The translations under genes were made by a program, and so were the position numbers. Below, piece after piece: positions 6,559-48,446 of a stretch of 64,000 nt of DNA. The notes beneath the pieces are model-generated. The model made no database searches. It had not been told where the DNA came from and saw nothing but the letters and a program-made list of their open reading frames with translations. Origin of the DNA: Corynebacterium suedekumii (GTDB lineage: Bacteria; Actinomycetota; Actinomycetes; Mycobacteriales; Mycobacteriaceae); contig NZ_CP126970.1 of NCBI RefSeq assembly GCF_030252185.1, forward strand, positions 186,001 to 250,000, in the 5' to 3' direction. The stretch's first letter is position 1. Each line of letters opens with the position of its first letter.

Positions 6559-7794
6559 ATGTCCTCCAAAATCGTGAAGGCCGAGGTCTTCGTCACCTCC
6601 CCGTCCCGCAACTTCGTCACCCTCCAGATCACCACCGACGACGGCGTCGTCGGCGTCGGTGACGCCACCCTCAACGGCCGCGAACTCGCCGTCGCCTCCT
6701 ACCTCAAGGACCACGTCGCCCAGCTGCTCATCGGCCGCGACGCCCGCATGATCGAGGACACCTGGCAGTTCCTCTACCGCGCCTGCTACTGGCGCCGCGG
6801 CCCCGTCACCATGGCCGCCATCGCCGCCGTCGACATGGCCCTGTGGGACATCAAGGGCAAGATGGCCAACATGCCGGTCTACGACCTGCTCGGCGGCGCC
6901 TCCCGCACCGGCGCCCGCGCCTACGGCCACGCCTCCGGCACCGACCTCGAGTCACTGTTCGACTCCATCCGCTACGAGATGGACCTCGGCTACACCATGA
7001 TCCGCGTGCAGACCTCCGTGCCCGGCATCGAGAAGCTCTACGGCGTCGCCGCCCAGGAACAGGCCTCCGGCGCCCGCTACGACTTCGAGCCCGCCAACCG
7101 CGGCGGCTGGCCCGTCGAGGAGGACTGGGACACCGCCGCCTACATGCGCCACCTGCCCACCGTCTTCGAGGCCGTGCGCAACGAGTTCGGCCCCGAACTG
7201 CCCCTGCTGCACGACGGCCACAACCGCATGACCCCGCGCGAGGCCGCCCAGCTGGCCAAGTCGCTTGAGCCCTACAACCTCTTCTGGCTCGAGGACGTCA
7301 CCCTCGGCGAGAACCAGGAGAACCTGCGCTACGTCCGCCAGCAGTCCACCACCCCGCTGGCCATCGGAGAGGTCTTCAACACCGTCTACGACATCAAGGA
7401 CCTCATCAACGAGCAGCTCATCGACTACGTCCGCTGCGCCACCACCCACTTCGGCGGCATCTCGCCCCTGAAGAAGGTCATGGCCCAGGCCGAGCCGTAC
7501 CAGATCAAGTCCGGCTTCCACGGCCCCACCGACGTCTCCCCCATCGGCTTCGCCGCCGAGCTGCACCTGGACATCAACATCCACAACTACGGCGCCCAGG
7601 AGTACATGACCCACACCCCGGAGACCCTGTCCGTCTTCGAGACCACCATGACCTTCGAGAACGGCATGCTCCACCCCTCCGATACCCCGGGCCTGGGCGT
7701 CACCTTCCACCCCGAGGAAGCCGAGAAGTTCCCCTACGAGCAGGCCTACCTCCCCTACAACCGTCTCGCCGACGGCACCGTCCACAACTGGTGA
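6559..7794 (+). CDS. manD: D-mannonate dehydratase, enolase superfamily (ManD/RspA type)
   Basis: A 411-aa enolase-superfamily protein. The three metal-binding acids of the mannonate dehydratase subgroup are visible as D219 (LLHDGHNR), E245 (FWLEDV) and E271 (AIGEVFN), with the exact 26/26 spacing of characterised ManD enzymes, and the partner H221 is kept. In this operon it should convert D-mannonate to 2-keto-3-deoxygluconate, the job done by the unrelated UxuA in E. coli. Some close relatives are low-efficiency gluconate/mannonate dehydratases, so specificity is inferred from context. It lies 48 nt after the symporter gene with GAAAGGA upstream of the ATG, and its stop overlaps the gluconokinase start. 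Confidence 0.87.
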   Translation: MSSKIVKAEVFVTSPSRNFVTLQITTDDGVVGVGDATLNGRELAVASYLKDHVAQLLIGRDARMIEDTWQFLYRACYWRRGPVTMAAIAAVDMALWDIKGKMANMPVYDLLGGASRTGARAYGHASGTDLESLFDSIRYEMDLGYTMIRVQTSVPGIEKLYGVAAQEQASGARYDFEPANRGGWPVEEDWDTAAYMRHLPTVFEAVRNEFGPELPLLHDGHNRMTPREAAQLAKSLEPYNLFWLEDVTLGENQENLRYVRQQSTTPLAIGEVFNTVYDIKDLINEQLIDYVRCATTHFGGISPLKKVMAQAEPYQIKSGFHGPTDVSPIGFAAELHLDINIHNYGAQEYMTHTPETLSVFETTMTFENGMLHPSDTPGLGVTFHPEEAEKFPYEQAYLPYNRLADGTVHNW

Positions 7795-36167: not shown

Positions 36168-36238
36168 CCACCACTTCCCACCGCCGGGGAACAAAACGCC
36201 GTTGGCGTGCATTTCACCGGCAACCAAGGAAGTGGTGG
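36168..36238. repeat. 11-bp inverted repeat flanking the sigma-operon promoter
   Basis: CCACCACTTCC (36168-36178) and GGAAGTGGTGG (36228-36238) are perfect inverted copies 49 nt apart, bracketing the GGAAC-N16-GCATT promoter. The right arm lies just before the GGAGGTG ribosome site. It may be an operator pair or a structure in the mRNA of pncB read-through. Confidence 0.6.
36188..36213 (+). promoter_or_regulatory. ECF-type promoter of the acidic-protein/sigma operon
   Basis: GGAAC (36188-36192), 16 nt, GCATT (36209-36213), followed by TCACC. The ATG of the acidic-protein gene is 39 nt downstream. The same -35/-10 pair with identical spacing occurs before both Asp-repeat genes, pointing to an autoregulated ECF sigma factor. 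Confidence 0.65.
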
Positions 36239-36252
36239 ACGGAGGTGAACAC

Positions 36253-36639
36253 ATGAATGACCCGGACGACCAGGCGGTCCTGCCGCCGCTGGACCAGCTG
36301 CACGGCACCGATGCAGGGCTCGATCCCACGGCCCTGGACAGCATGCTCGCCGTGGCGACCGACCCGTCGACCCCCGACCCCGGGGTCGATCCGGGCCTGG
36401 ACGGCCTGAGCAGCGAGGAAGACGTCGACCTCGCGGACCTCGGCGACCCCGCCGATCCTGCCGACCAGGGTGACATCGACGAGACCGATGAGGGCGACCT
36501 CGATCTGCCGCCCCTCCACGACGAGTTGGCACCCCTGGATGACGACTACTCCGGAGACCCCGGCAGCCACGTCGACACGGGTGACTATGCCGAGCACATG
36601 GATCCCGGCGATCTCGACGACCCGTTGGCCGACCTGTGA
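36253..36639 (+). CDS. very acidic protein cotranscribed with the ECF sigma factor
   Basis: A 128-aa protein with roughly a quarter aspartate, many prolines and almost no basic residues (for example DLADLGDPADPADQGDID). There is no signal peptide or membrane span, and it is probably disordered. ATG 36253 follows GGAGGTG by 5 nt. The stop overlaps a possible GTG start of the sigma gene (GTGA), so the two are coupled. Position suggests a partner of the sigma factor, perhaps an unusual anti-sigma or a Ca-responsive acidic peptide; this is inference only. I know no family for it. Confidence 0.75.
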   Translation: MNDPDDQAVLPPLDQLHGTDAGLDPTALDSMLAVATDPSTPDPGVDPGLDGLSSEEDVDLADLGDPADPADQGDIDETDEGDLDLPPLHDELAPLDDDYSGDPGSHVDTGDYAEHMDPGDLDDPLADL

Positions 36640-36656
36640 GCGGAAGTGGACACACG

Positions 36657-37226
36657 ATGAATCGTTCTGACCGGGCCGACACCTCCGCCATCGAGGCGGA
36701 GCGTGATCTCATCCGACGCGCCCAGGGAGGCGACCAGAAGGCCTTCGCCGATCTTGCCTCGGGAGCACAGTCCCGCATGTGGGCGGTCTGCCTGTCCATC
36801 ACCGGAAACCGCCACGATGCCGAGGACGCCATGCAGAACGCCCTCACCGCACTCTGGAAGAACCTCCCCCGCTTCGTACCCAAGGCCCGATTCTCCACAT
36901 GGGCGTACCGGGTCGCCTCCAATGCCGCTCTCCAGATCGTCCGCGCCCGTCGGGACACCCCTGATGCCGAGGCCGGATTCGATGAGCCGTCGACCGATTC
37001 CCCCGTCGACTCGCAGGTCACCTCCGCGGTGGTGATGCGGCGTGCGCTCGATGAGTTACCGCCGGAATTCCGGGAGGTCATCGTCCTCCGGGAGTACGCC
37101 GGTTTGAGCTACCAGGAGATCGCCGATCATCAGAAGGTGGGCGTGCAGACGTTGAAGAGTCGCATTAACCGGGGACGGACAAAGCTACGCCAGGCCCTGG
37201 AATCGGCGGGCGTCACTCACGCCTAA
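36657..37226 (+). CDS. ECF-type RNA polymerase sigma factor
   Basis: An 189-aa sigma-70 family factor with region 2 (AFADLASGAQSRMWAVCLSITGNRHDAEDAMQNALTALWK in outline, then FSTWAYRVASNAALQIVRARR) and region 4 (LDELPPEFREVIVLREYAGLSYQEIAD, VGVQTLKSRINRGRTKLRQAL). ATG 36657 is chosen because GGAAGTGG lies 8 nt upstream; GTG 36636 would add seven residues and overlap the upstream stop. No anti-sigma gene follows. The promoter of its operon shares a motif with three other transcription units, so it probably directs its own synthesis and a local regulon. Confidence 0.92.
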   Translation: MNRSDRADTSAIEAERDLIRRAQGGDQKAFADLASGAQSRMWAVCLSITGNRHDAEDAMQNALTALWKNLPRFVPKARFSTWAYRVASNAALQIVRARRDTPDAEAGFDEPSTDSPVDSQVTSAVVMRRALDELPPEFREVIVLREYAGLSYQEIADHQKVGVQTLKSRINRGRTKLRQALESAGVTHA

Positions 37227-38728
37227 GCAGGTGGGGACAGGTCGAACAGGCTGGGATCATCGAAGTCCGGTGGATCAGGTGGCTTGTTCCTGGCCCTGAT
37301 CTTCGCCCCGGCAGAATACTCCTGTAGTTCGGTGTCGTTGAACTGGATCGGCCCACCATCCGGTGGCTGCCACCCCGCCCGACCACTCTCCGGGTCCCGC
37401 ACCATATGCCCCATCCCACCGGCCCCATCCTGGTTGTCATTGTTATCCGCATGATGGGGTGGACACTCCAGGGTCAGGTACTCCAGATCCGTCACCCCAC
37501 CCCGGGCCCACGCCTTAATGTGGTGCACATGGGCATGAATCATCGCCCCGTCACAGGTACCGCAGGCACACAACCCCTCATAAGCGAACAACGCCAGTCG
37601 CTGATACAGGGTTGCCGTGCGTTTCGTCCGACCCAGGGCCAACGGCTGACCCTGCACGTCATGCAGCACACCCAGGTCATAGGCAGCAGCACCGAGGGTG
37701 AGGATGTCCAACGCCGACAACAGATGCCCGGTATTCGACAGGAACCGACTGTCTGCGGTCATCTCCTCCACATCCTTGGTGGTCATGCTGACCACCACCG
37801 AACCAACCCCCTGACGGGACTTCGGTGACTCGTCCGACAGCAGACGTGACAGCACCACACCGAGCTGATCGACGCCGCGTTGGGCCCGGCTGCGCCTGTC
37901 CTTGTCGTCTGGCACTTCTGTATTCGCTCCGGGGCGTAGTCCCGGTGCCAGGGCAGCGGTGAGCATCGCAGCCACATCCGCCGGCAGGGACCCGGAGATA
38001 CTCACGTTGCCGTCGGTGTCCTGCTTACCCAGACGCAGGGCGCGTTTCTTGTGCCCGGCCAACCGGTCCTTTCTCCCGTCGGGTTGGCGTCCGGCAGCAT
38101 TGGCGTTGGTCACCCGACGGCGCAGCCAGACCCGCAGATCCTCCGGGCAGCGGTGGCCTGCCTCCTTCAACGCTTCTGCCTGCAGCACAGCACGACTGGG
38201 GGAGGAATGCTCATTGAGGGTGCGGAGTTCCTGCCGGATGATCTTCTGCTTCTCGGCGGCGACCTTCCGGGCCTGGTCCCGGGCTTCGCGTTGTGCTTTC
38301 TCGTCCTGTTCCCGACGACGGGCCTCTTCCTGACGTAAGAGTCGTTCCCGTGCTGCCGCATCTTCCGCACTCTCACCTGCCTCAGGCTCCGGGGTGGGCA
38401 TCGGTGGCACGACTGGTGTGGTGAACAGTCCCTCACCACGTCCGACCCGGTCGACGGCTTCCTGCCAGGACAACCCGAGTGCTGTGATGAGGAAGTCGAT
38501 GGGTCGACTGGACCCGACGAGGCGGCCGGCGTCGGAGCGTTCCACCAGCCAGGCAAACGAGGCGTCGACATAGGCTTTGGCGTTCATGGTCTTTTCCAGG
38601 CGGATGAAGTCAGCCCGGACGGTGTGGAAGTCAACGCCGTCGGGTTCGGCCATGAGGTCAGCCAGGGTGGTCATGGCCGCATCGATCTGGTCGACCAGTT
38701 GTGTGATCTGCTGTGACACCGTTGTCAC
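37223..38728 (-). CDS. DUF222 / HNH endonuclease domain protein, second copy
   Basis: A 501-aa relative of the protein at 8657-9991 with a longer charged middle region (Glu/Arg/Gln-rich coiled coil about residues 115-170). The C-terminal HNH domain has CACGTCDGAMIHAHVHHIKAW, GGVTDLEYLTLECPPHH. GTG start at 38728. Its stop overlaps the convergent sigma gene by 4 nt. A partial SOS-box-like site lies upstream, as for the first copy. It is a long way diverged from the first copy, so this is not a recent duplication. Confidence 0.87.
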   Translation of the reverse strand: MTTVSQQITQLVDQIDAAMTTLADLMAEPDGVDFHTVRADFIRLEKTMNAKAYVDASFAWLVERSDAGRLVGSSRPIDFLITALGLSWQEAVDRVGRGEGLFTTPVVPPMPTPEPEAGESAEDAAARERLLRQEEARRREQDEKAQREARDQARKVAAEKQKIIRQELRTLNEHSSPSRAVLQAEALKEAGHRCPEDLRVWLRRRVTNANAAGRQPDGRKDRLAGHKKRALRLGKQDTDGNVSISGSLPADVAAMLTAALAPGLRPGANTEVPDDKDRRSRAQRGVDQLGVVLSRLLSDESPKSRQGVGSVVVSMTTKDVEEMTADSRFLSNTGHLLSALDILTLGAAAYDLGVLHDVQGQPLALGRTKRTATLYQRLALFAYEGLCACGTCDGAMIHAHVHHIKAWARGGVTDLEYLTLECPPHHADNNDNQDGAGGMGHMVRDPESGRAGWQPPDGGPIQFNDTELQEYSAGAKIRARNKPPDPPDFDDPSLFDLSPPA

Positions 38729-38805
38729 CCCGATTCTTCAACGATTCCCCTGTCGCTTACATGTTCGAGTTTACCGCCACGAACGGCACCGTCAACCCCT
38801 ATTGC

Positions 38806-38821
38806 TAGAATAGACGTTCGA
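38806..38821. promoter_or_regulatory. SOS-box-like site before DUF222/HNH gene 2
   Basis: TAGAATAGACGTTCGA matches TCGAAC-N4-GTTCGA at 10 of 12 positions. On the minus strand the surrounding AATCGAACGT(C/T).ATTC is shared with the site in front of the first DUF222/HNH gene. It lies 78 nt upstream of the GTG, in a plausible promoter. Confidence 0.5.
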
Positions 38822-38858
38822 TTACCCCCGTTTATAGTGAGACACCGGCAAAGGCGAA

Positions 38859-38882
38859 CGCCCGGCACCGTGGTGCCGGGCG
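38859..38882 (-). terminator. hairpin after the Hsp70-like gene
   Basis: CGCCCGGCAC and GTGCCGGGCG form a perfect 10-bp stem with a CGTG loop, 13 nt after the Hsp70-like stop on the minus strand. The T-tract behind it is poor (TTCGCCTTTG). Confidence 0.6.
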
Positions 38883-38895
38883 GATCACTCATTCA

Positions 38896-41058
38896 TCAGG
38901 CCAGGAAGCCCCAGTAACGCAGGGTGTCGTCGACAGCGTTCTCTGGATCACCCATGTAGCCCGCACCATAGATGAGGATCTGCTGGTCCGGGTAGTACAC
39001 GGAGTAACCGGTGCCACCGTTGCCGTCGGCCGGCGTGTAGGTGCGGATCTCCGGGTTACCGTCGCCGGCTTCCTGGATGGTCTCCTCGTTGTAGCCGGCA
39101 TTGTTGGACAGGAAGTCCTGGACCGTCTGCACCTGGTCGCCGGTGGAGACGAAGCGGAAGCCACGGGACATGCCGTTGTCCGGGGTGCCTTCGGCGGCCT
39201 CACCGCTGGGGCCGTTGCACTGGATGACCTCTTCACCCAGGCCCTCGATGAAGCTGGAGATCGGCTCGGTGACGGTGCAGCCACGTTCGACGGTGGCGAG
39301 GAACGGCGCGGGAAGGGCGCCCTGCGCCTCCGGCACGCGCTCGACGAGGGAGGAGTACTCCGGGATCCCCCCGTTGGCAGCCGCCGTCGGCGCTGCGGCG
39401 GAGGTCGGGGCAGCGGCCGCGCTCGTCTCCTGGGCGTCGGTGGTGGGCTCCGTGGCCTCCTGCGTGGTGGTCTCTTCGGTGGCCGTGTTCTCGCCCTCAT
39501 CGTCACCACCGAGGAAGAACCACAGGAGGCCGCCGACCACGACGACGGCTCCGATGGCGCCGCCGATGCCCAGCAGCTTTCCGGAGCTACCGCCGGAGCT
39601 GGTGGTGTGGGAACTGGGGACGGATCCACCGGTGGAACCACCGGCACCACCCGGAGTGCCGTAACCGGCTCCTGCGCCTGCGGTGGGCATGGCGGCGGTG
39701 TGCGGGGTCGGCTGGCCAACCGGAGCGCCCTGTGTATCCGTGGGCCCTGCGCCCGGCGCACCGTCACCCGGCGCGCCAGCGGCGAAGGGATTACCCGAGG
39801 TAGATGCCTCACCGGCAGCGGCGCCTGCGGTGGCGGCACCGGCACCGGCGGCACCCGCAGCTGCACCAGCACCTGCGCCGGCGGCGGCCGGGCCACCGGA
39901 GGCGAAGGGGTTGCCGCCGGCGGGGCCGGTACCGGCGGTGCGGGTGGGGCCGGCCTTGCCGTCCGCGGTCGTCGTGAAGCCGAGGAGGGTGGCGGCGAGC
40001 GCGCCACGGGAGACGACGGTCTTGGGGTCGTCGAGGGTCATGACGGTGCCGATCTCACCGAGACGGTTCTGCATGTAGGGGATGCGGGAGGAGCCGCCGG
40101 TCATGTAGATCGGGGTGGTGGACTGGTTGACACCGGCCTGCTCGAGGGCGGCGAGGGTGAGTTCGCAGGCGCGGTCGACACTGCGCGCGATGACCTCGTT
40201 GAACTCGTCACGCGTGATCAGCAGGTCGTGCTCCCCGTTGGGGGTGGACACGGTGATGGTGGCGGAGGAGGTGTCGGAGAGGATCTCCTTGGCGTCACGG
40301 ATGTTGACGTCGAGGGAGTGCATGACCGAGACGGGGGCGTTGCGCAGGTAGTCGGCCAGATCGGGGTCGTCGTGCTCGACCTGGGAGATGACCCAGCGGT
40401 AGAGCAGGTTGTCCACGGTGCGACCGCCGAGCGAGTTGTCGCCCTTGGCGGCGACGACGCGGAAGTTACCGCCCTGTTCGGCCTCGAGGACGGCGATGTC
40501 GAGGGTGCCGCCGCCGAAGTCGAAGACGGCGACGTGCTCACCCGGGGTGACGGTCTGCTGGGCGGCGTAGTGGATGGCGGCGGCCCTTGGCTCGGAGATC
40601 AGGCGAATGTGGTCGCGGGGCACCCCGGCGTGCTCGACGGCGGCGACGAGCTGGTCGACGGAGTGGACGGACCAGCCCTCCGGGTGGGTGAGGGTGACGG
40701 ACTCCGGGTCCTGCCCGGCGTGCTGGGCACGGGCCCGCTCGAGGATGCCGGTGAACACGCTGCCGACGACCTCGACGAGGCTGACGGCACGGCCGGCGAG
40801 CTGCACGTCATCATGGTCGATGTAGCGCTTCGGGCTGGGCAGCAGGTTGGAGGGGTCACGACGGCCACGGCTCAGGGCGGTGTCACCGGTGAGGATGGTG
40901 CGGGCGTCGCCGTCACCGTCGACGAAGACCGCCGAGGGCATGAGGTTGCTGCGGTGGCTCAGGGCGACCGCCTCCACGGTTCCGGACATCGGCGCGGTGT
41001 GGGCCGCAGACGAGTTACTCGTGCCGAAGTCGACGGCGAGGTGCCAGGTGTCAGCCAT
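38896..41058 (-). CDS. membrane-anchored Hsp70-like protein
   Basis: A 720-aa protein. Residues 1-365 are an Hsp70/actin-fold ATPase domain: phosphate-1 LAVDFGTSNSSAA, phosphate-2 VFDFGGGTLDIAVLE, LISEPRAAAIHYA, and adenosine motif YMTGGSSRIPYMQNRL. There is no standard substrate-binding domain. Instead there is an Ala/Gly/Pro-rich linker (about 380-480), one membrane span (about 496-518, AIGAVVVVGGLLWFFLG), a Glu/Thr-rich stalk and an outside domain (about 560-720) with a cysteine pair. It is therefore an ATPase inside the cell linked to an outer sensor or effector domain. It lies 108 nt after the smaller dynamin-like gene, with a GGAAAGC/GCTTTCC hairpin (41123-41142) between. Confidence 0.88.
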   Translation of the reverse strand: MADTWHLAVDFGTSNSSAAHTAPMSGTVEAVALSHRSNLMPSAVFVDGDGDARTILTGDTALSRGRRDPSNLLPSPKRYIDHDDVQLAGRAVSLVEVVGSVFTGILERARAQHAGQDPESVTLTHPEGWSVHSVDQLVAAVEHAGVPRDHIRLISEPRAAAIHYAAQQTVTPGEHVAVFDFGGGTLDIAVLEAEQGGNFRVVAAKGDNSLGGRTVDNLLYRWVISQVEHDDPDLADYLRNAPVSVMHSLDVNIRDAKEILSDTSSATITVSTPNGEHDLLITRDEFNEVIARSVDRACELTLAALEQAGVNQSTTPIYMTGGSSRIPYMQNRLGEIGTVMTLDDPKTVVSRGALAATLLGFTTTADGKAGPTRTAGTGPAGGNPFASGGPAAAGAGAGAAAGAAGAGAATAGAAAGEASTSGNPFAAGAPGDGAPGAGPTDTQGAPVGQPTPHTAAMPTAGAGAGYGTPGGAGGSTGGSVPSSHTTSSGGSSGKLLGIGGAIGAVVVVGGLLWFFLGGDDEGENTATEETTTQEATEPTTDAQETSAAAAPTSAAAPTAAANGGIPEYSSLVERVPEAQGALPAPFLATVERGCTVTEPISSFIEGLGEEVIQCNGPSGEAAEGTPDNGMSRGFRFVSTGDQVQTVQDFLSNNAGYNEETIQEAGDGNPEIRTYTPADGNGGTGYSVYYPDQQILIYGAGYMGDPENAVDDTLRYWGFLA

Positions 41059-41166
41059 GGTGTCGTGATCTCCTGAATGTTTCGGGGCAAGGGGAAATTA
41101 ATGTTTGTACACGAATCCTAGGGGAAAGCCGGAGCGCTTTCCGGTCGGATCGCTCAACCGACGGGT

Positions 41167-42615
41167 TCACCGCATGGCCTGCAGGGCCGCCTGGTGGGCG
41201 CCGAGGAGTCGTTCGCGGGCCTCGTCCTCGGCGGCCGAGAGCGGGGTCATCGCCATCTCCTGCAGTTCACCGAGGGCCTGTTCGTGCGCGGACCGGACCT
41301 GGTCGGCGGGGGTGCCGTGCGGCAGGCCGACCACCCCGGCGGGGTCGACGGCGGTGATGGCGCGGCGCAGCGGTTCGAGCAGGTGGGAGTCCGGGGTGGC
41401 GGCGATGGTGTTGCGGTAGCTGCGGTACAGGGCGACGAAGTGCATGCCGGGCTGGGCCAGGGTCACTGAGCGCACCCAGCGGACGTGGTCGCGGTTGGGG
41501 TGGCTGGCGGAGAGCTCGTCGAGTTCGTCGAGGACGCGGACCGCGCGCTGGAGCACGGCGAAGTAGGCGAAGTCGCCGGTGAGCAGGTCGGTGAGTTCCT
41601 CGACGCCGGAGGCGCGGGTCATCCACTCGACCAGGCCGACGGCGCCGCGGTCGCGAGCGACCGCCCGGCCGTGGACCAGACCGTACTCGCCGAGCCGGTC
41701 CAGCAGGTCGTCGCGCATGGCGGCGGTGAAGCCGGGGACGATGACAGCGGGGTCGTCGAGCTCGACGACGTCGAGAAGCGTGTCCCGGTCGAGATCGGCG
41801 AGCTGGGCTAGGTTGCGGGCGATCTCGCCGGTGACCTGGCCGGTACCGGCGGTCTCGGCGAGCAGGCCGGACAGCGGCAGCACGGTGCTCACGCTGGTGC
41901 CCAGCTGGGCGGCGATGCGCTGCGCGTGTTCCCGGGCGTGCTCGAGCGGGTCGCGGGGCCCGAAGGCGCCGGCGCCGAAGGAGTCCGCCCGGGAGAGGAC
42001 GCCGATCGTGGACAACGGTGTCATGCCCAGGTCGGCGAGGAAGGCGCGTTCGTCGTCACGCGGGGCGGAGTCGGAGAGGAACACCACGCAGTCGGCCCAG
42101 GAGCTGGCCCGCCGGGTGTCCTGGCGGCCATCGATGAGGGCGCGGCGGGTGCGCTGCTCGTTCTCCACGGTGAGGGTGGCGGTGCCGGGGGTGTCGATGA
42201 GCGAGAGTTCCCGCAGCCGCGCATTCGGCAGGTACTGGCGGATGTGGTCGATCTCTTCGAGCGGGCGGGGCAGGTCCGTGAGGGGGCCGGCGCCGAGGGT
42301 GACCCGGTCGACGCGGCCGTCGAGGCCGAGGACCTCCGCCCGGGCGGGCTGACCGTCGAGATAGAGGCTGACGGCCATCGTGCACTCGAGGGTGCCGGTG
42401 GCGGCGGTGTGGTGCTCGGTCAGCGCGTTGACCAGGGTGGACTTGCCGGCCTTGAGGCGGCCGACCACCGCCACCCGGGGCGCGCGGGTGACCATGTCCT
42501 TCAGTTCGACGGCACGTTCGGCCAGGTCAGGACCGCCCTGGGCCAGGGCGTCCATCGCCTGGACGAGGAGGGTGGACAGGGCGGTGAGGGAACCGCTGCG
42601 GTCGACGGTGGTCAT
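41167..42615 (-). CDS. dynamin-like GTPase, smaller partner (IniC-like)
   Basis: A 482-aa dynamin-superfamily GTPase. G1 is GRLKAGKST (52-60), the switch threonine follows in the AATGTLECT region, G3 is DTPG (141-144), and the G4-like SRAD follows. It is close in length to mycobacterial IniC (about 490 aa) and, like it, overlaps the gene of a larger dynamin-like partner, here by 4 nt (ATGA). The C-terminal half is helical with no clear membrane span. It probably works as a heteromer with the larger protein on the inner face of the membrane. Confidence 0.87.
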   Translation of the reverse strand: MTTVDRSGSLTALSTLLVQAMDALAQGGPDLAERAVELKDMVTRAPRVAVVGRLKAGKSTLVNALTEHHTAATGTLECTMAVSLYLDGQPARAEVLGLDGRVDRVTLGAGPLTDLPRPLEEIDHIRQYLPNARLRELSLIDTPGTATLTVENEQRTRRALIDGRQDTRRASSWADCVVFLSDSAPRDDERAFLADLGMTPLSTIGVLSRADSFGAGAFGPRDPLEHAREHAQRIAAQLGTSVSTVLPLSGLLAETAGTGQVTGEIARNLAQLADLDRDTLLDVVELDDPAVIVPGFTAAMRDDLLDRLGEYGLVHGRAVARDRGAVGLVEWMTRASGVEELTDLLTGDFAYFAVLQRAVRVLDELDELSASHPNRDHVRWVRSVTLAQPGMHFVALYRSYRNTIAATPDSHLLEPLRRAITAVDPAGVVGLPHGTPADQVRSAHEQALGELQEMAMTPLSAAEDEARERLLGAHQAALQAMR

Positions 42616-44429
42616 CGGGCACCTCCGGCCGCCAGGTGGCGGTCAATCTCCTGCATGGTGGAGCGGATGATCTCGGCGTTCTTCTGCAGCCGCACCACCT
42701 TCTCCTTGCGTCCCGCCTCGGAGTCGCGGGCGAGCTGCCGCGCCTCCTCGATCCGGGTCTGCAGCTCCTTCTGCCGGCGCCGCAGGTCCGAGCGGTACTT
42801 GAGCATGATCTCCGTGCGGGCGGAGGCGATGACGGTGTCGAAGATGCGGGTCGTCGACTGGCGTGCCTTGCCGCTGGTCTCACGCAGCCAGGTGACCAGG
42901 TGCTGTTTGCCGTTGCGCATGGCGCGGTAGGCCATGTTCACACCGATCCACACACCACCGGCGAGCGGGGCGACGGGGATGAGCGGGGCGAGCAGACCGG
43001 CGCCGAGCATGCCCATCATCACTACGGAGGGGTCGAGCAGATTCTTGGTCTTCTTGTCCACCTCCCGCCCGCTGACGTCCCCGGTGGTCAGGGTCTCCAG
43101 CACGGAGGCGGTGATCTCCGCGGCGGTCTCCGGGTTGTCCGGGAACAGGTTGCGGGCATGGGAGGTGATGGCGTCGAGCAGCTGGCCGATGGTGCGTTCC
43201 ATGATGTCGGCGAGCTCCGCCTCGATCTGGCTGGTGAACACCTGCGGTTTCGACCGCAGCACCCGCAGCGACTCCTTTTCAATCCGCTGCGTCCACGCCA
43301 CCCGCATCGCCTCGAGGTCCTGATCCAGCTGGTCGGTGATCCGGTTGCGGGTCACCTGGATGTCCCGCTGGAACAGCTGCTCCCATTCCGAGGACTGCTC
43401 GCGGAACTGTTCCAGTTCCGCCTTCTCCGCCTCCAGTTCCTCGACGGCCTTGGACGGTTCGGTGTGCAGGCGCAGATCCTTGTCGACGCCCGCGTGAATC
43501 CCGTGGAGCGTCGCCCGCACCGACTCCAGGGCGGCACGTTCCCCCAGCTCCTGCGGGGTACGCAGGAAATCGGTGATCACCCGACGCAGCTCGGCGATGC
43601 CGCTGCGCTCGTCGATGGCGGCGGCCCGTTCCGGATCCGGGTGCTCGGCGGCGTCCGCCGCCCGCAGGCTGGACACCCCGATCACCGGCACGCTCACCCC
43701 GAGATGCTGCTCGATGAGACGACGGTCATCCTCGACGATGCTGCGCCAGCGGCGGACGTTCTTGTCGGTCTTGGTCACCGCGACGACCACCCCACCCGTC
43801 GACTCCCGCGCGGTACGCAGGATCTCCATCTCCGGGGCCGTGATCGGGGTCGACGCGTCGCACACCATGAGCAGCAGGCCCGCGCCACGGGCCTCGTGCA
43901 ACGCGGCGGTCACCGCGTGCTCGTCCAGGCCACCGACGCCCGGGGTGTCGATGACGGTCACCTTCGGCAGTCGCCTGTCCCCCAGGCTGATCTCCGCGGC
44001 GGAGGGAATCTGGTCGACGTCCCCGTCCGGCGTGACGACGCCGCGTCCGTCCTCCCCCACCGTCACCCACCGGGGCAGCTCATCCGCTCCGATCTCATCG
44101 CGCCGCTCACCCCGCACCAGCCGGATCCGCGGCTCCGCCTGCGGGTCCGCCTCCGGATCCACCGTCACCCGGATCGGTGCCGCGGTGCACGTGAGCACAT
44201 CCACCGGCAGCAGTCCGCGGCGCCCGAACAGGGCATTGACCAGAGACGACTTACCCCGCTTGACCTCACCGACAACCACGACGGTGCCGCGGCGGAACTT
44301 CGCGTCCAACAGATTCCCCGCATGATCAGCCGCCCCCTCCAGCCCGTAGCGGCGGGCGATGTCAGCCGCCCGTTGCACGGTCTGGCGAGGGCTGCGGGTG
44401 GTGGGCGCGCTCTTCGTCGGCGACGTCAT
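42612..44429 (-). CDS. dynamin-like GTPase, larger partner (IniA-like)
   Basis: A 605-aa dynamin-superfamily GTPase. G1 GEVKRGKSS (54-62), switch threonines in DVLTCTAAPI, G3 DTPGVGG (about 161), G4 TKTD (about 215). A long coiled coil follows (VEELEAEKAELEQFREQ, about 320-345), then a hydrophobic hairpin about 470-500 (MGMLGAGLLAPLIPVAPLAGG), which would be the membrane paddle as in mycobacterial IniA. First gene of the dynamin-dynamin(-Hsp70) run. The 284-bp divergent region to the Asp-repeat gene carries a GGAAC-N16-GCTTT site facing it. Confidence 0.88.
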   Translation of the reverse strand: MTSPTKSAPTTRSPRQTVQRAADIARRYGLEGAADHAGNLLDAKFRRGTVVVVGEVKRGKSSLVNALFGRRGLLPVDVLTCTAAPIRVTVDPEADPQAEPRIRLVRGERRDEIGADELPRWVTVGEDGRGVVTPDGDVDQIPSAAEISLGDRRLPKVTVIDTPGVGGLDEHAVTAALHEARGAGLLLMVCDASTPITAPEMEILRTARESTGGVVVAVTKTDKNVRRWRSIVEDDRRLIEQHLGVSVPVIGVSSLRAADAAEHPDPERAAAIDERSGIAELRRVITDFLRTPQELGERAALESVRATLHGIHAGVDKDLRLHTEPSKAVEELEAEKAELEQFREQSSEWEQLFQRDIQVTRNRITDQLDQDLEAMRVAWTQRIEKESLRVLRSKPQVFTSQIEAELADIMERTIGQLLDAITSHARNLFPDNPETAAEITASVLETLTTGDVSGREVDKKTKNLLDPSVVMMGMLGAGLLAPLIPVAPLAGGVWIGVNMAYRAMRNGKQHLVTWLRETSGKARQSTTRIFDTVIASARTEIMLKYRSDLRRRQKELQTRIEEARQLARDSEAGRKEKVVRLQKNAEIIRSTMQEIDRHLAAGGAR

Positions 44430-44561
44430 GAAAGTACCTCGAGTCCTTGTTGCGGTGTCATCCGGAAGGTGCCGAAAATTTTCTTCATACTTTTCCGGAC
44501 CTACCGAAGCATCCCTCCCATTGTGAACCAGAAGTGCCGTGACCGCACACTTTGCCTGCCC

Positions 44562-44587
44562 AAAGCAGATCTTTCCGGAAAAGTTCC
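44562..44587 (-). promoter_or_regulatory. ECF-type promoter variant facing the dynamin operon
   Basis: On the minus strand GGAAC (44587-44583), 16 nt, GCTTT (44566-44562). It differs by one base in the -10 from the motif of the three plus-strand promoters, and continues ACTTTTCC after the -35 as at 46534. The -10 lies 132 nt before the dynamin ATG. Confidence 0.45.
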
Positions 44588-44595
44588 GGGTGCCG

Positions 44596-44621
44596 GGAAC
44601 ATTTGCCGACGCCCCCGCATT
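44596..44621 (+). promoter_or_regulatory. ECF-type promoter of Asp-repeat gene 1
   Basis: GGAAC (44596-44600), 16 nt, GCATT (44617-44621). The -35 elements of this and the minus-strand site are back to back as GTTCC-N8-GGAAC, so one sigma factor could fire both ways. A CCGGAA-AAG-TTCCGG dyad (44575-44589) overlaps. The ATG is 92 nt downstream. Confidence 0.62.
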
Positions 44622-44713
44622 CCATCAACGACAGGACAGCAGCACGGTTCCTGACACATACTGACACCAACCGCTCCGCCCCGTGAGACGGGCCACCCGA
44701 AAGGAATGATGAC

Positions 44714-46426
44714 ATGTCCGGCGAGAACACCAACCCGAACACCAACCCCGCCAACAATGACGTCACCGGGGCAGCCGCTGACCCCAAGACCGACAGCACC
44801 TTCACCATCCAGAACGCCGACGGCACCGTCAAGGTGGAGGCCGACATCGTCGGCGCCCAGGACTCCGACAACGACGGCACCTTCGACACCTTCGAGTTCG
44901 ACGCCGACGGCGACGGCACCGCCGACGGCCGCTTCATCGACCGCGACGGCGACGGCAAGGCCGAGAAGATCGAGCTCGACACCGACGGCGACCGGGTCAC
45001 CAACACCATCCTCGAGGACCGCAACGGCGACGGCATCATCGACGCCGAGCACCACGACATCAACAACGACGGCCTCATGGACACCACCGTCCTGGACACC
45101 GACCACGACGGCGTGATCAACAGCGTGAGCATCGACACCGACGGTGACGGCACCCACGACACCGTCATCCGCGACTTCGACGGCGACGGCGTGGCCGACG
45201 CGGTCACCTTCGACACCGACGGTGACGGCAAGGCCGACACCCGCCACTACGACCACGACGGTGACGGCTCCCTCGACTCCACCGACGGCGCCGGCCAGCT
45301 CAACGCCACCCAGCAGCAGATCTCCGACGAGGTCTTCGGCGGTGGCGCCGGTGCTGGTGCCGGTGCGGCCGGTGCAGCTGGTGCGGGCGCGGCAGCTGCC
45401 GGGGCTGGTGCCGCCGCCGCTCCGGCCCCTGAGGCCGAGGCTGCTCCGGCTGAAGCTGCTGCTCCGGCCCCCGAGGCTCCCGAGGCTGAGGCCCCGGACG
45501 CTGCCCCTGAAGCAGCTCCCGCGCCTGAAGCAGCTCCCGCGCCTGAGGCAACGCCGGGTGCCGCCGCCGGTGGCGAGCCGAACCTGGACCTCGACCCGGG
45601 CAAGTACCGCGAAATCGACACCGACGGCGACGGCGTCAACGACGCCATGATCCGCGACAACGACGGCGACGGCGACATCGACGCCGCCGTCTTCGACACC
45701 GACGGCGACGGCACCTACGACACCCGCCACCTCGACCTGGACAAGGACGGCGCCCGCGACACCGTCGACGGCGACGGCCAGCTCACCGCAGAGCAGCAGA
45801 ACCTCTCCGACCGCGCCTTCGGTGGCCAGGAATCCGCCTCCACCCCGGACCCGGCACCGACCGAGGACGCCCCCGCCGAGGCTCCGGCCGCTGAGCCGGC
45901 CGCCGCCCCTGCCGCAACTGCCGCTCCGGCCGCTGACGCCGGCGAGGGTACCCCGGCTTCCGCACCGTCGAGCGTCACCCTCGACGGTTCCCAAGGCACC
46001 GAGGTCGATCTCGACGGCGACGGGTTCGGTGACGCGATCGTCTTCGATCAGGATGGCGACGGAGAGACCGACGCGATGCTCGTCGACACCGACGGCGACA
46101 ACGTCACCGACACCCTCATCGTCGACACCGACGGTGACGGCATTGCCGAGGAGGTCCACGTGGACACCGACGGTGACGGTATCGTCGACCAGATCTTCCT
46201 GGACACCAACGAGGACGGCCAGGTCGACCAGGAGCACCGCGACACCGACGGTGACGGCTTCACGGACGAGGCGATCATCGACACCGACTTCGACGGCATC
46301 GGTGACACCCGCATCACCGACACCGACGGCGATCACACCTACGACGCCCAGGAGGACATCTACACCGAGAACGAGGCACCGATGATGCCGGGCGCCGACG
46401 ACGTGGACGGCGGCGAGCTGGTCTAA
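44714..46426 (+). CDS. Asp-rich repeat protein 1 (24 DxDGDG-type 13-residue repeats)
   Basis: A 570-aa acidic protein built from 13-residue repeats of the form DxDGDGxxDxxxx. I count 11 contiguous repeats (50-192), 4 more (about 302-353) and 9 (about 432-548), separated by Ala/Pro/Glu/Gly linkers. The repeats resemble thrombospondin type 3 or EF-hand-like calcium loops. There is no signal peptide or membrane span, so it is probably cytoplasmic. The N-terminal segment (VEADIVGAQ), the nine-repeat C-terminal array (starting TEVDLDGDGFGDAI) and the tail (ENEAPMMPGADD) are shared with the second protein. ATG 44714 follows AAGGAATG. A hairpin terminator follows. Confidence 0.88.
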   Translation: MSGENTNPNTNPANNDVTGAAADPKTDSTFTIQNADGTVKVEADIVGAQDSDNDGTFDTFEFDADGDGTADGRFIDRDGDGKAEKIELDTDGDRVTNTILEDRNGDGIIDAEHHDINNDGLMDTTVLDTDHDGVINSVSIDTDGDGTHDTVIRDFDGDGVADAVTFDTDGDGKADTRHYDHDGDGSLDSTDGAGQLNATQQQISDEVFGGGAGAGAGAAGAAGAGAAAAGAGAAAAPAPEAEAAPAEAAAPAPEAPEAEAPDAAPEAAPAPEAAPAPEATPGAAAGGEPNLDLDPGKYREIDTDGDGVNDAMIRDNDGDGDIDAAVFDTDGDGTYDTRHLDLDKDGARDTVDGDGQLTAEQQNLSDRAFGGQESASTPDPAPTEDAPAEAPAAEPAAAPAATAAPAADAGEGTPASAPSSVTLDGSQGTEVDLDGDGFGDAIVFDQDGDGETDAMLVDTDGDNVTDTLIVDTDGDGIAEEVHVDTDGDGIVDQIFLDTNEDGQVDQEHRDTDGDGFTDEAIIDTDFDGIGDTRITDTDGDHTYDAQEDIYTENEAPMMPGADDVDGGELV

Positions 46427-46453
46427 CAGACCCGGACACCACCCCACACCACG

Positions 46454-46484
46454 ACAGCACCACCGCGACCTGCGGTGGTGCTGT
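46454..46484 (+). terminator. hairpin terminator after Asp-repeat gene 1
   Basis: ACAGCACCACCGC pairs with GCGGTGGTGCTGT (13 bp, perfect) around GACCT, followed by TGTCGTC. It starts 27 nt after the stop, so the second Asp-repeat gene depends on its own promoter. Confidence 0.75.
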
Positions 46485-46533
46485 TGTCGTCGGCGCAGTC
46501 GAACACACCCGTACCGTGATGTGGAACACCCCG

Positions 46534-46559
46534 GGAACTTTTCACCCGCCACCCGCATT
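46534..46559 (+). promoter_or_regulatory. ECF-type promoter of Asp-repeat gene 2
   Basis: GGAAC (46534-46538), 16 nt, GCATT (46555-46559), then TCACC exactly as in the sigma-operon promoter. It lies between the terminator of gene 1 and the ATG of gene 2, 43 nt upstream of the latter. Confidence 0.65.
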
Positions 46560-46602
46560 TCACCGTCGACCGAGCACACACCGACCAGACAGGAACCCCA
46601 TC

Positions 46603-47418
46603 ATGACGAACCCGCAGAACTACCAGGACGTCGACGGCCGGCTGACCGTCACGGACAACCAGGGCAACACCGCCTCCGCCGACATCGTCGACGGCCGCGA
46701 CCTCGACGGCGACGGGACCCTCGACGAGTTCCGCATCGACACCGACGGTGACGGCCGCGCCGACGGCTCCTTCATCGACCAGGACAATGACGGCCGCATG
46801 GAGTCGATCAGCCTGGACACCGACGGTGACGGCGTCGCTGACCGGACCTTCCAGGGTGATGACACGTTTGACAGCTCGACCGGCTCCACCGCCCCGGTGG
46901 CGGACACTCCGCCCACCCCGCCGGCTGGGTCCCCCACCGACGGGCCGCACGCGGCCCCGGAGATTCCCACGGACGGCACCGAGGTGGATCTCGACGGAGA
47001 CGGTTTCGGTGACGCCATCATCCACGACACCGACGGTGACGGCCAGCTGGACATCATGCAGGCGGACACCGACGGGGACGGGGTGACGGATCTGGCGATG
47101 TTCGACACGGATGGGGACGGCGTCGTCAATGACATCCACTACGACTCCGACGGGGACGGAATCGCGGACCAGATCCTGCTCGACACCGACGGTGACGGGC
47201 AGCTCGACCAGGAGCACTTCGACACCGACGGCGACGGTATCTCCAACGAGGCACTCATCGACACCGACCTCGACGGCATCGGCGACACGTACGCCACCGA
47301 CACGGACGGCGACGGCGTCTACGACCAGTTCGAGGATGTCACCACCGAGTCCGAGGCGCCGATGATGCCCGGCGCGGAGGACTCCGACTTCGACGCCGGC
47401 GGCACCGAGCTGGCCTGA
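46603..47418 (+). CDS. Asp-rich repeat protein 2 (13 DxDGDG-type repeats)
   Basis: A 271-aa paralogue of the previous protein. It has 4 repeats at 33-84 and 9 at 129-245, joined by a Pro/Thr linker, and ends SEAPMMPGAEDSDFDAGG. The two proteins share the start (ADIVDGR), the nine-repeat array between TEVDLDGDGFGDAI and YDQFED, and the EAPMMPGA tail, but the larger has 11 extra repeats and a second linker. ATG 46603 follows AGGAACCCCATC. No export signal. Binding of calcium or another divalent ion is inferred from the repeats. Confidence 0.88.
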   Translation: MTNPQNYQDVDGRLTVTDNQGNTASADIVDGRDLDGDGTLDEFRIDTDGDGRADGSFIDQDNDGRMESISLDTDGDGVADRTFQGDDTFDSSTGSTAPVADTPPTPPAGSPTDGPHAAPEIPTDGTEVDLDGDGFGDAIIHDTDGDGQLDIMQADTDGDGVTDLAMFDTDGDGVVNDIHYDSDGDGIADQILLDTDGDGQLDQEHFDTDGDGISNEALIDTDLDGIGDTYATDTDGDGVYDQFEDVTTESEAPMMPGAEDSDFDAGGTELA

Positions 47419-47448
47419 TCCTGCTCACCGGTGTCAGCGCCCGCGCGC

Positions 47449-48381
47449 TCAGCACGGATCGTGGAAATCCCCGACCGTGTTGAGGGTGCGGGCGTTTCCG
47501 CCGTAGCGCGCCTTCCCGGCGCACAGGGCCTGGCGGTCCGACCCGTAGTCGATGTACACGGGGTAAACCGCAGCGCCCTCGAGGCTGGCGCGCAGGGAGG
47601 AGCACTGGCCCGGCAGCGTGTACTCCGTGCCCGGGACGGCGTTGAGGGCGTCCGTGAGCTGCTGTTCGGTGCTCACTCCGGGCTGCTCGACAACGGAGCT
47701 GACGATGAGGATGCCGCGCCCGTCGCACGCCGGGCTCGACGCCTGGATCGGGCCGCGGGCGGAGGGGACGGAGTGGCCGCCGCTGGACCGGGAGGGGCCC
47801 ACCGGGCCAGTTCCACGGGTGTCGCAGGTGTGCAGGAACCGTTGCAGCGCTTCAGGAACAATGTCTCTGCCGTCCGCGCAGTGGTCATAGCCTGCCCACC
47901 GGCCGTTGGTATAACGGACGACACCCAGATCATCTGAGTTCTTCGCTCCGGCCATCGCCCACTCACCGTCACAACCGTCCACCACGTCCCATTGCGCCAC
48001 CCCGAGATCCGCGAGCACGACGTCCGGATCACAGACATCCGCGGCAGGTTCGGCAACCCGCGCTGCGGCACCGGTGGTCCCCGTCGCACCAGCCGGGGAA
48101 TCCTCTTCCGCTGTGACCACCTCCGTGGAGTACACCACGACCGGTTCAGCGGAATCAGTGCCGCTGCCACCGTCGAGGACGCCCTGCAGGATCATTGCCC
48201 CGGCCACGCCGGCACCGGCGACGAGGGCGATCGCGCCGACGATGATGCCGGCCTTCCGCCCCTTCCCGCGCCGTTCCTGCGCCGGGGCCGCCGCGGAGGT
48301 CTCCCACTGCGAGTCCCACTGGCCGGTCTGCCCCCAGCCGGCGGTCGGACGATCCCACTCGTCATGGTGCTCGTTGTTCAT
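47449..48381 (-). CDS. one-span membrane protein with Cys-rich outside domain
   Basis: A 310-aa protein with a polar Trp/Gln/Glu-rich cytoplasmic N-terminus (residues 1-42), one membrane span (about 44-67, AGIIVGAIALVAGAGVAGAMIL) and an outside domain of about 240 residues with eight or so cysteines, likely disulphide-bonded (CDPDVVLADLGVAQWDVVDGCDGEWAMAG; TLPGQCSSLRAS). I do not recognise the domain. ATG 48381 is chosen as the start nearest the conserved charged N-terminus. It converges on Asp-repeat gene 2 with 30 nt between stops. Confidence 0.75.
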   Translation of the reverse strand: MNNEHHDEWDRPTAGWGQTGQWDSQWETSAAAPAQERRGKGRKAGIIVGAIALVAGAGVAGAMILQGVLDGGSGTDSAEPVVVYSTEVVTAEEDSPAGATGTTGAAARVAEPAADVCDPDVVLADLGVAQWDVVDGCDGEWAMAGAKNSDDLGVVRYTNGRWAGYDHCADGRDIVPEALQRFLHTCDTRGTGPVGPSRSSGGHSVPSARGPIQASSPACDGRGILIVSSVVEQPGVSTEQQLTDALNAVPGTEYTLPGQCSSLRASLEGAAVYPVYIDYGSDRQALCAGKARYGGNARTLNTVGDFHDPC

Positions 48382-48420
48382 GTCCAGCAGAATAACCTGC
48401 GGTTTCACCCCCTGCCCGGC

Positions 48421-48446
48421 AAACCTTCACCGGTGGGGAGTGTTCC
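48421..48446 (-). promoter_or_regulatory. weak ECF-type promoter candidate for the one-span membrane protein
   Basis: On the minus strand GGAAC (48446-48442), 16 nt, GGTTT (48425-48421), 40 nt upstream of ATG 48381. The -35 and spacing agree with the other sites; the -10 differs at two of five bases and could equally be a SigH-like GTT element. Confidence 0.3.

Follow-up and report, generated by a model that had tools for sequence, protein, structure and literature searches.

The locus described here lies in a 64,000-nucleotide window of the single-contig, 2,858,263-bp genome of Corynebacterium suedekumii (all coordinates are those of the window), where a group of genes between pncB on one side and a dinG-like helicase gene on the other forms a recurrent actinobacterial gene unit with a private promoter signal and looks like an undescribed stress-type system. 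On the plus strand, an open reading frame (ORF) for an acidic protein of 128 aa (36253-36639) is followed by the gene for an extracytoplasmic function (ECF) sigma factor of 189 aa (36657-37226). The sigma protein has only regions 2 and 4 (Pfam Sigma70_r2, 1.5e-14; Sigma70_r4_2, 1.4e-13) and accounts for one of the 8 sigma-70 region 2 matches in the genome. Genes for an Hsp70-like ATPase (38896-41058; HSP70, 9.5e-29) and for two dynamin-like GTPases, DynC (41167-42615; Dynamin_N, 3.2e-8) and DynA (42612-44429; Dynamin_N, 3.2e-14), lie on the minus strand, followed on the plus strand by two genes for aspartate-repeat proteins of 570 aa (repeat gene 1, 44714-46426) and 271 aa (repeat gene 2, 46603-47418). 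The last gene, on the minus strand (47449-48408), encodes a one-span membrane protein with a Cys-containing outside part. The original prediction had named this gene set from the DNA letters, and all of its members are present and identifiable. No description of the module was found in the open-licence literature searched, where absence is no proof.

The acidic-sigma operon and both repeat genes are preceded by one type of predicted ECF promoter. These plus-strand sites read GGGAAC-N16-GCATTTCA before the operon (36187..36216), GGGAAC-N16-GCATTCCA before repeat gene 1 (44595..44624) and GGGAAC-N16-GCATTTCA before repeat gene 2 (46533..46562). The pattern GGGAAC-N16-GCATTYCA has 3 matches in the whole genome, all in this locus, and none when reversed; a looser pattern returned the same 3 sites genome-wide. 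With up to 3 mismatches allowed, the window gave 8 matches against 7.6 expected, so that only perfect matches are meaningful. Because the consensus had been read off the window's own sites, a matrix was trained on other species. Of 26 Corynebacterium loci scanned for this purpose, none of them from the window's species, 21 supplied the 38 training sites of the form GGAAC-N16-GCATY (identical ones counted once), which were picked regardless of position; the remaining 5 gave none. This matrix scored the window sites at 35.0, 29.9 and 26.7 (the last being the operon site) and the next best place in the window at 8.5. A chance motif was considered and ruled out by the position of all three genome matches within the locus, the agreement of the looser pattern and the reversed-sequence controls. 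The proposal that the sigma operon and both repeat genes share one motif thus holds, with three matches genome-wide that a matrix from other species recovers. The operon appears to carry the sigma factor's own promoter type, and the same type before operon and targets suggests positive autoregulation. An ECF-type regulon of this form had been predicted, and on these sequence grounds it is very probable that sigma autoregulates the module and has the repeat genes among its targets.

The same matrix was applied to loci elsewhere, a clear site being defined by a score of at least 19. The 26 Corynebacterium loci yielded 55 such sites (1 when the sequence was reversed), 36 loci from other genera 53 (reversed: 0) and the 13 loci L118-L130 a single one (reversed: 0). 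One of each duplicate pair (L137 = L016; L143 = L022) was dropped from the counts, and L012, L013 and L015 (the same stretches as in L099, L103 and L113) were left out of the other-genera promoter counts together with L031 and L033. The 58 Corynebacterium sites, window included, precede repeat genes (28), acidic-sigma operons (22), hsp70 (2) or fall under other/none (6, of which the L104 site actually stands before an acidic ORF). A recognised module gene follows 39 of the 53 sites in other genera: a repeat gene in 16 cases, an acidic gene in 9, a DUF7373 lipoprotein gene in 8, hsp70 in 3, dynA in 2 and a C39-like gene in 1. Counted by upstream region in Corynebacterium, mostly in training loci, the score of 19 was reached before sigma in 22 of 25 cases, before repeat gene 1 in 18 of 24, before hsp70 in 1 of 25 and before dynA or dynC in 0 of 25 each. 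Among the 25 dynA upstream regions, 4 reached p ≤ 0.05 where about 1 was expected (median exceedance 0.20), a promoter-like excess that is at most slight. The evidence supports a view of the dynamin pair and the apparently membrane-anchored Hsp70-like protein as usual neighbours, which in some loci of other genera seem to bear the same promoter. A whole-genome pattern scan of six relatives proved too strict, giving 3 matches, each at most about 5 kb from a module gene. In L034, a gene for a CD225-family small membrane protein (6868-7284, minus strand) is also preceded by the module promoter.

The −35 element of module promoters contains AAC, as GGGAAC or, in a sister clade of sigma factors, as TGTAAC. 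A tree of 68 sigma rows (midpoint root, for drawing only) separated clades of 10 and 58 with support of 100/99. When whole stretches were searched, TGTAAC-type sequences occurred in 8 of the 10 loci of the small clade and in 0 of the other 58, and GGAAC-type sites in 3 of the 10 and 40 of the 58. Since sigma and −35 appear to diverge together, we argue that the module sigma reads the module promoter. Three loci (L118, L128 and L129) are nearer the second kind by match score, yet are placed in the clade of 58. Across L118-L130 the TGTAAC pattern had 21 matches, of which 14 lay a short way upstream of a gene for a lipoprotein, an Hsp70-like protein or a repeat protein. One sigma of each kind is present in four Corynebacterium genomes (G188, G206, G218 and G287), and G217 has two sigma matches in stretches outside the fetched set. 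In genome G349, one locus (L116) has a second sigma gene about 8 kb from the first, together with two acidic ORFs. Two proteins labelled Staphylococcus chromogenes (P0012 and P0241, on one 87,028-bp contig) are a module sigma and an Hsp70-like protein, and probably represent Corynebacterium contamination. The traits listed for ECF systems in one account include a two-domain sigma, AAC in the −35 element and an own-type promoter before the own operon (PMC8103513), and the module shares these. It differs from canonical ECF operons in that its sigma partner is very acidic, is encoded upstream and has no known anti-sigma domain, and in a −10 element of GCAT[TC] rather than CGT.

Co-occurrence of the module genes was surveyed in 242 Corynebacterium genomes, with cut-offs of E ≤ 1e-40 for sigma and E ≤ 1e-30 for DynA. 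Sigma was found in 43 genomes, DynA in 40 and both in 39 (Fisher p 2.7e-39, uncorrected for kinship). Of 49 sigma matches, 43 had DynA within 12 kb (median start-to-start distance 5.4 kb); of 46 DynA matches, 42 had sigma nearby. In 40 fetched Corynebacterium stretches, from which the Hsp70 co-occurrence was read, tblastn at 1e-8 detected dynA in 36, dynC in 37, hsp70 in 36 and a repeat gene in 30. Genes in fetched stretches were called by a simple purpose-written caller with tblastn as a cross-check; the caller gave no sigma in L016, L025, L027, L029, L032, L094, L137, L145 and L147 and missed the L115 dynamins. A second survey, of 151 genomes at the family level (sigma cut 6.3e-49, chosen at a gap in the list; DynA cut 1e-50), gave sigma in 46, DynA in 43 and both in 41, so that at these cut-offs 5 of 46 sigma genomes lacked DynA and 2 of 43 DynA genomes lacked sigma. 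Among 80 named loci, a dynamin lay in the surrounding stretch of 18 of the 23 closest sigmas versus 0 of 57 more distant ECF sigmas, whose stretches held no module parts. Carriers with a dynamin in the stretch of the sigma include Dietzia, Williamsia, Rhodococcus, Gordonia, Hoyosella, Pseudonocardia, Gulosibacter, Zimmermannella, Aeromicrobium, Actinoplanes and Spirilliplanes. Gulosibacter belongs to the Micrococcales, Actinoplanes to the Micromonosporales, Aeromicrobium to the Propionibacteriales and Pseudonocardia to the Pseudonocardiales; Corynebacterium belongs to a fifth order. The co-occurrence of sigma, dynamins, Hsp70 and repeat proteins that the original prediction had put forward as its check is therefore seen in Corynebacterium and beyond.

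The exceptions in the genus survey could be followed individually. Of its four sigma-only genomes, G271 and G346 have more divergent dynamin and Hsp70 matches beside sigma, while G220 and G371 carry decayed module copies in the pncB-dinG region. G220 has kept the acidic and sigma ORFs in a stretch with a fragmented repeat gene and no dynamin or Hsp70 match; in G371 a short acidic ORF and pieces of sigma remain. Judged from these remains, both are cases of joint decay of the module parts. Sigma and dynA lie on separate contigs in G311 and G334, the sole dynA-only genome (G312) is an assembly of about 480 contigs with 87% completeness, and G159 has a second dynA with no sigma nearby. With the window included, the pncB-dinG region houses the module or a remnant in 14 of 41 Corynebacterium loci. 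Outside Corynebacterium the module also includes a C39-like cysteine peptidase and DUF7373 lipoproteins; an NCBIfam search of the partner proteins returned no informative names. One ORF (L028:6853-8088) matches both the DxDxDG repeats and the C39-like peptidase region, which hints at a functional link. L128 and L129 represent a variant with the genes for the acidic protein, sigma, DynA and DynC in a row, in which no repeat gene or Hsp70 match was found and near which lie a 679-aa ORF, coiled-coil-like in look, and others. Two further genes of the window do not recur in this manner. The one-span membrane protein had been proposed as a member of the unit, and no relative of it was recognised in the other loci mapped, so it is not conserved. 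A DUF222 ORF between sigma and hsp70 (37223-38728, minus strand) was rejected as part of the conserved unit, as no counterpart was recognised there when the other Corynebacterium loci were mapped.

The acidic protein of the window contains about 31% Asp/Glu and a conserved N-terminal motif; at the cut-offs applied, neither Pfam nor NCBIfam nor PADLOC recognised it. In the window, and in every fetched Corynebacterium locus with a called sigma (39 of 39), the ORF directly preceding sigma in the same orientation is acidic (21-39% Asp/Glu); in the fortieth fetched locus (L094) sigma was uncalled. When a profile built from 24 Corynebacterium acidic sequences was run against 1009 proteins of the mapped loci, the acidic ORFs of other loci ranked first: L131 (2.1e-19), Aldersonia L021 (2.2e-10) and Dietzia L014 (2.7e-9), followed by L094, Hoyosella L022, L116, Aldersonia L019 and L127. 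Most of these best matches adjoin sigma; the ranking leaves out three duplicates of training loci, the hits in L012, L013 and L015 not being independent. The part shared by the family is approximately P-D-D-x-[WF]-x3-[LM]-x3-A-x-D-P-x-T-P-x2-D-x2-L-V-P. A database search with 17 acidic proteins returned 28 at E ≤ 1e-6, with no Pfam domain, and those with a name were all called 'hypothetical protein'. By these comparisons the acidic protein is a conserved family usually found beside sigma, which is a new observation. Its position makes it the best candidate regulator of sigma, as a putative anti-sigma factor or sigma partner.

Repeat proteins 1 and 2 contain 21 and 13 DxDxDG-type motifs, respectively, mostly 13 residues apart, and have net charges of -127 and -70. 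The repeat unit is a 13-residue tandem D-T-D-G-D-G-x-x-D-x4, in which the D1-D3-D5-G6-D9 loop recurs; positions 1, 3, 5 and 6 were fixed by the search pattern, whereas position 9 was free and is Asp in 28 of 34 cases and Glu or Asn in 6. Neither protein has a span or signal-like segment. A strongly hydrophobic segment is likewise absent from 47 of 48 repeat-protein rows (46 distinct, L015 included), and the exception, L026, probably has a mis-set start. The earlier view of these proteins as cytoplasmic agrees with their hydropathy.

The Hsp70-like protein combines a familiar ATPase domain with an unusual remainder. Both sequence and predicted fold point to a nucleotide-binding domain over residues ~1-365, as in Hsp70/DnaK. 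In the AlphaFold model (mean pLDDT 75.8, pTM 0.56), residues 1-370 have pLDDT values of 83-98 per ten residues, and Foldseek gave TM scores by target length that peaked at 0.86 and lay around 0.8 for the majority of Hsp70 nucleotide-binding domains. No substrate-binding domain was detected, the matches ending near residue 350 (1 of the 60 shown reaches 390). In its place, and unlike Hsp70/DnaK, the protein has a low-confidence linker (386-563, nearly all pLDDT below 50), one predicted membrane span (498-516) and an outside domain (~570-720) that is folded in the prediction (571-720, pLDDT 65-92). A hydrophobic span follows residue 350 in 29 of 29 aligned Hsp70-like proteins. The outside domain varies fast, with 13-26% identity to that of the window and one invariant Cys and one Pro among 9 proteins. 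The closest of the relatives listed for this protein is annotated in Corynebacterium suedekumii and aligns with 87% of the query at 92% identity.

Both dynamins contain a GTPase domain (Dynamin_N) above cut-off; DynA has one hydrophobic segment (469-487) and DynC no predicted one. Residues 49-416 of DynA match the solved Mycobacterium smegmatis IniA (8.6e-16), its best solved relative. The DynC profile matched IniA (5e-11), Der GTPases (8.1e-11) and chain 5owv (2.3e-9), a Campylobacter dynamin-like protein; IniA, BDLP and Der were matched alike. Campylobacter CjDLP1/2 and other paired bacterial dynamins resemble the module in being two-gene pairs, but are not known to have a regulon or partners in common with it. 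Bacillus subtilis DynA is a single fused dynamin that is not known to have a sigma module. It offers a likeness as a dynamin tied to membrane repair and antibiotic protection, and a difference in being described as constitutive (PMC8144471).

Several other explanations of the locus were weighed. The original prediction had compared the dynamin pair to mycobacterial IniA/IniC, and the module might accordingly be a corynebacterial iniBAC, a mycobacterial-type envelope-stress dynamin operon. The likeness stands in so far as DynA matches IniA, the dynamin genes are paired and an envelope-stress setting is plausible; DynC matches IniA too, though about as well as Der GTPases. The regulator and the gene set, however, are unlike. 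The iniBAC activator is IniR, reported to induce iniBAC only (PMC5760070), whereas the module is apparently under an ECF sigma, and the operon as described in PMC6715688 includes no ECF sigma, acidic, Hsp70-like or Asp-repeat genes. Moreover, the similarity of DynA to IniA is confined to part of the protein, NCBIfam recognised no IniB among 8 window proteins, and IniB_NTERM gave 0 matches in the genome, as it did in control genomes too. We consider this identity quite unlikely. Slightly less credit is given to the reading of the locus as a sigma-switched anti-phage defence based on LeoBC-like dynamins. The PADLOC profile for LeoBC covers most of DynA (7e-16) and gives a weak match to DynC (3.9e-7), and patchy distribution with two decayed copies would fit a costly accessory system; against this, PADLOC found no match for the other 7 of 9 proteins scanned, the pncB-dinG site is shared by the 14 loci noted above, and a private promoter kept across genera would be unusual for defence genes. 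That the genes are chance neighbours with a common promoter type and form no real module might be suggested by the patchy presence of sigma across Corynebacterium, but is contradicted by the genome-unique sites, the reversed controls, the co-occurrence and proximity of sigma and DynA and the 0 of 57 distant ECF loci, and is extremely improbable.

Two further alternatives concern the roles of individual proteins. The acidic protein may be a coactivator or a repeat-like effector instead of an anti-sigma factor, with sigma controlled in another way, for instance by Hsp70 or through transcription only. Its gene precedes sigma and encodes no known anti-sigma domain, in some genera it lies apart from sigma or on the opposite strand, and autoregulation alone could suffice for control. 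The invariable same-strand position directly upstream of sigma in Corynebacterium, and the tracking of sigma by the family in several other genera, speak against it, and we regard this alternative as a doubtful but serious one. The repeat proteins, in turn, could be exported non-classically as surface or adhesion proteins, so that the module would serve the cell surface and not deal with ions in the cytoplasm. Repeats of the DxDxDG type are characteristic of calcium-binding proteins outside the cell, and DUF7373 lipoprotein genes bear the module promoter in other genera; the lack of a signal-like or membrane segment in nearly all repeat rows argues the other way, and export appears unlikely.

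Our preferred explanation, a conserved and self-contained ECF-sigma module that works as proposed below, is favoured with modest confidence, and a number of observations weigh against it. In this genome, the matrix found no convincing sigma promoter before the dynamins, Hsp70 or the one-span protein, so that sigma-driven membrane remodelling is not supported here. The near match said to face the dynamin genes is present (7.2 at 44487 and 5.8 at 44590, both on the minus strand) and locally unusual, 1.5% of random segments reaching its score, but is no convincing promoter; the weaker motif claimed at the membrane-protein gene scored 1.3 and was not upheld. Elsewhere, clear sites are missing before some Corynebacterium sigma genes (3 of 25) and copies of repeat gene 1 (6 of 24), 14 of the 53 other-genera sites (classed as other/none) have no recognised module gene downstream, the strict pattern is absent from the examined stretch in 18 of 58 main-clade loci, and the TGTAAC pattern is weaker, with its 21 matches against 10 in reversed sequence. 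Sigma is below cut-off in 199 of 242 Corynebacterium genomes, and the module is therefore no core function. Among the 40 fetched loci, 3 have no dynamin, 4 no hsp70 and 10 no repeat gene by tblastn, although L120, one of these ten, has repeats by motif. Several acidic ORFs of other genera match the profile only insignificantly (L034 at 0.42, for example), and the anti-sigma role derives from position, co-conservation and charge. Calcium binding is suggested by motif likeness, while the repeat proteins had no Pfam or PDB-sequence match and NCBIfam hits far below cut-off.

Within the conserved ECF-sigma module thus favoured, the acidic protein of a resting cell would use its acidic tail and conserved N-terminal motif to keep sigma inactive. 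A disturbance of the envelope or membrane, which the Hsp70-like protein may detect with its outside domain, would free sigma, whose main output in this genome would be the two cytoplasmic Asp-repeat proteins. These may fold on binding divalent cations, with calcium that leaks in across a damaged membrane as the likeliest ion, and act as a buffer; alternatively, they may recruit and tune the two dynamins and the Hsp70-like protein. The latter three, here presumably made independently of sigma, would reshape or reseal the membrane. A role in membrane or envelope stress is conceivable, at somewhat less than even confidence. A more specific scheme, an actinobacterial response for membrane repair not described before, is speculative and rather improbable: the cytoplasmic Asp-repeat proteins would read calcium influx through membrane damage and steer the dynamin pair together with a membrane-anchored Hsp70 that lacks a substrate domain, the acidic protein would act as an anti-sigma factor of a new, small and acidic class, and two orthogonal circuits (GGGAAC and TGTAAC) would operate in some genomes.

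Should the regulon prove real, bacterial dynamins, about whose roles in the cell little is understood, would acquire a stress switch of their own, partners that resemble chaperones or bind cations, and genetic access in actinobacteria not known to cause disease. The acidic family would then be a sigma partner of a new type, and the pairing of GGGAAC with TGTAAC would provide a natural case of sigma-promoter divergence.

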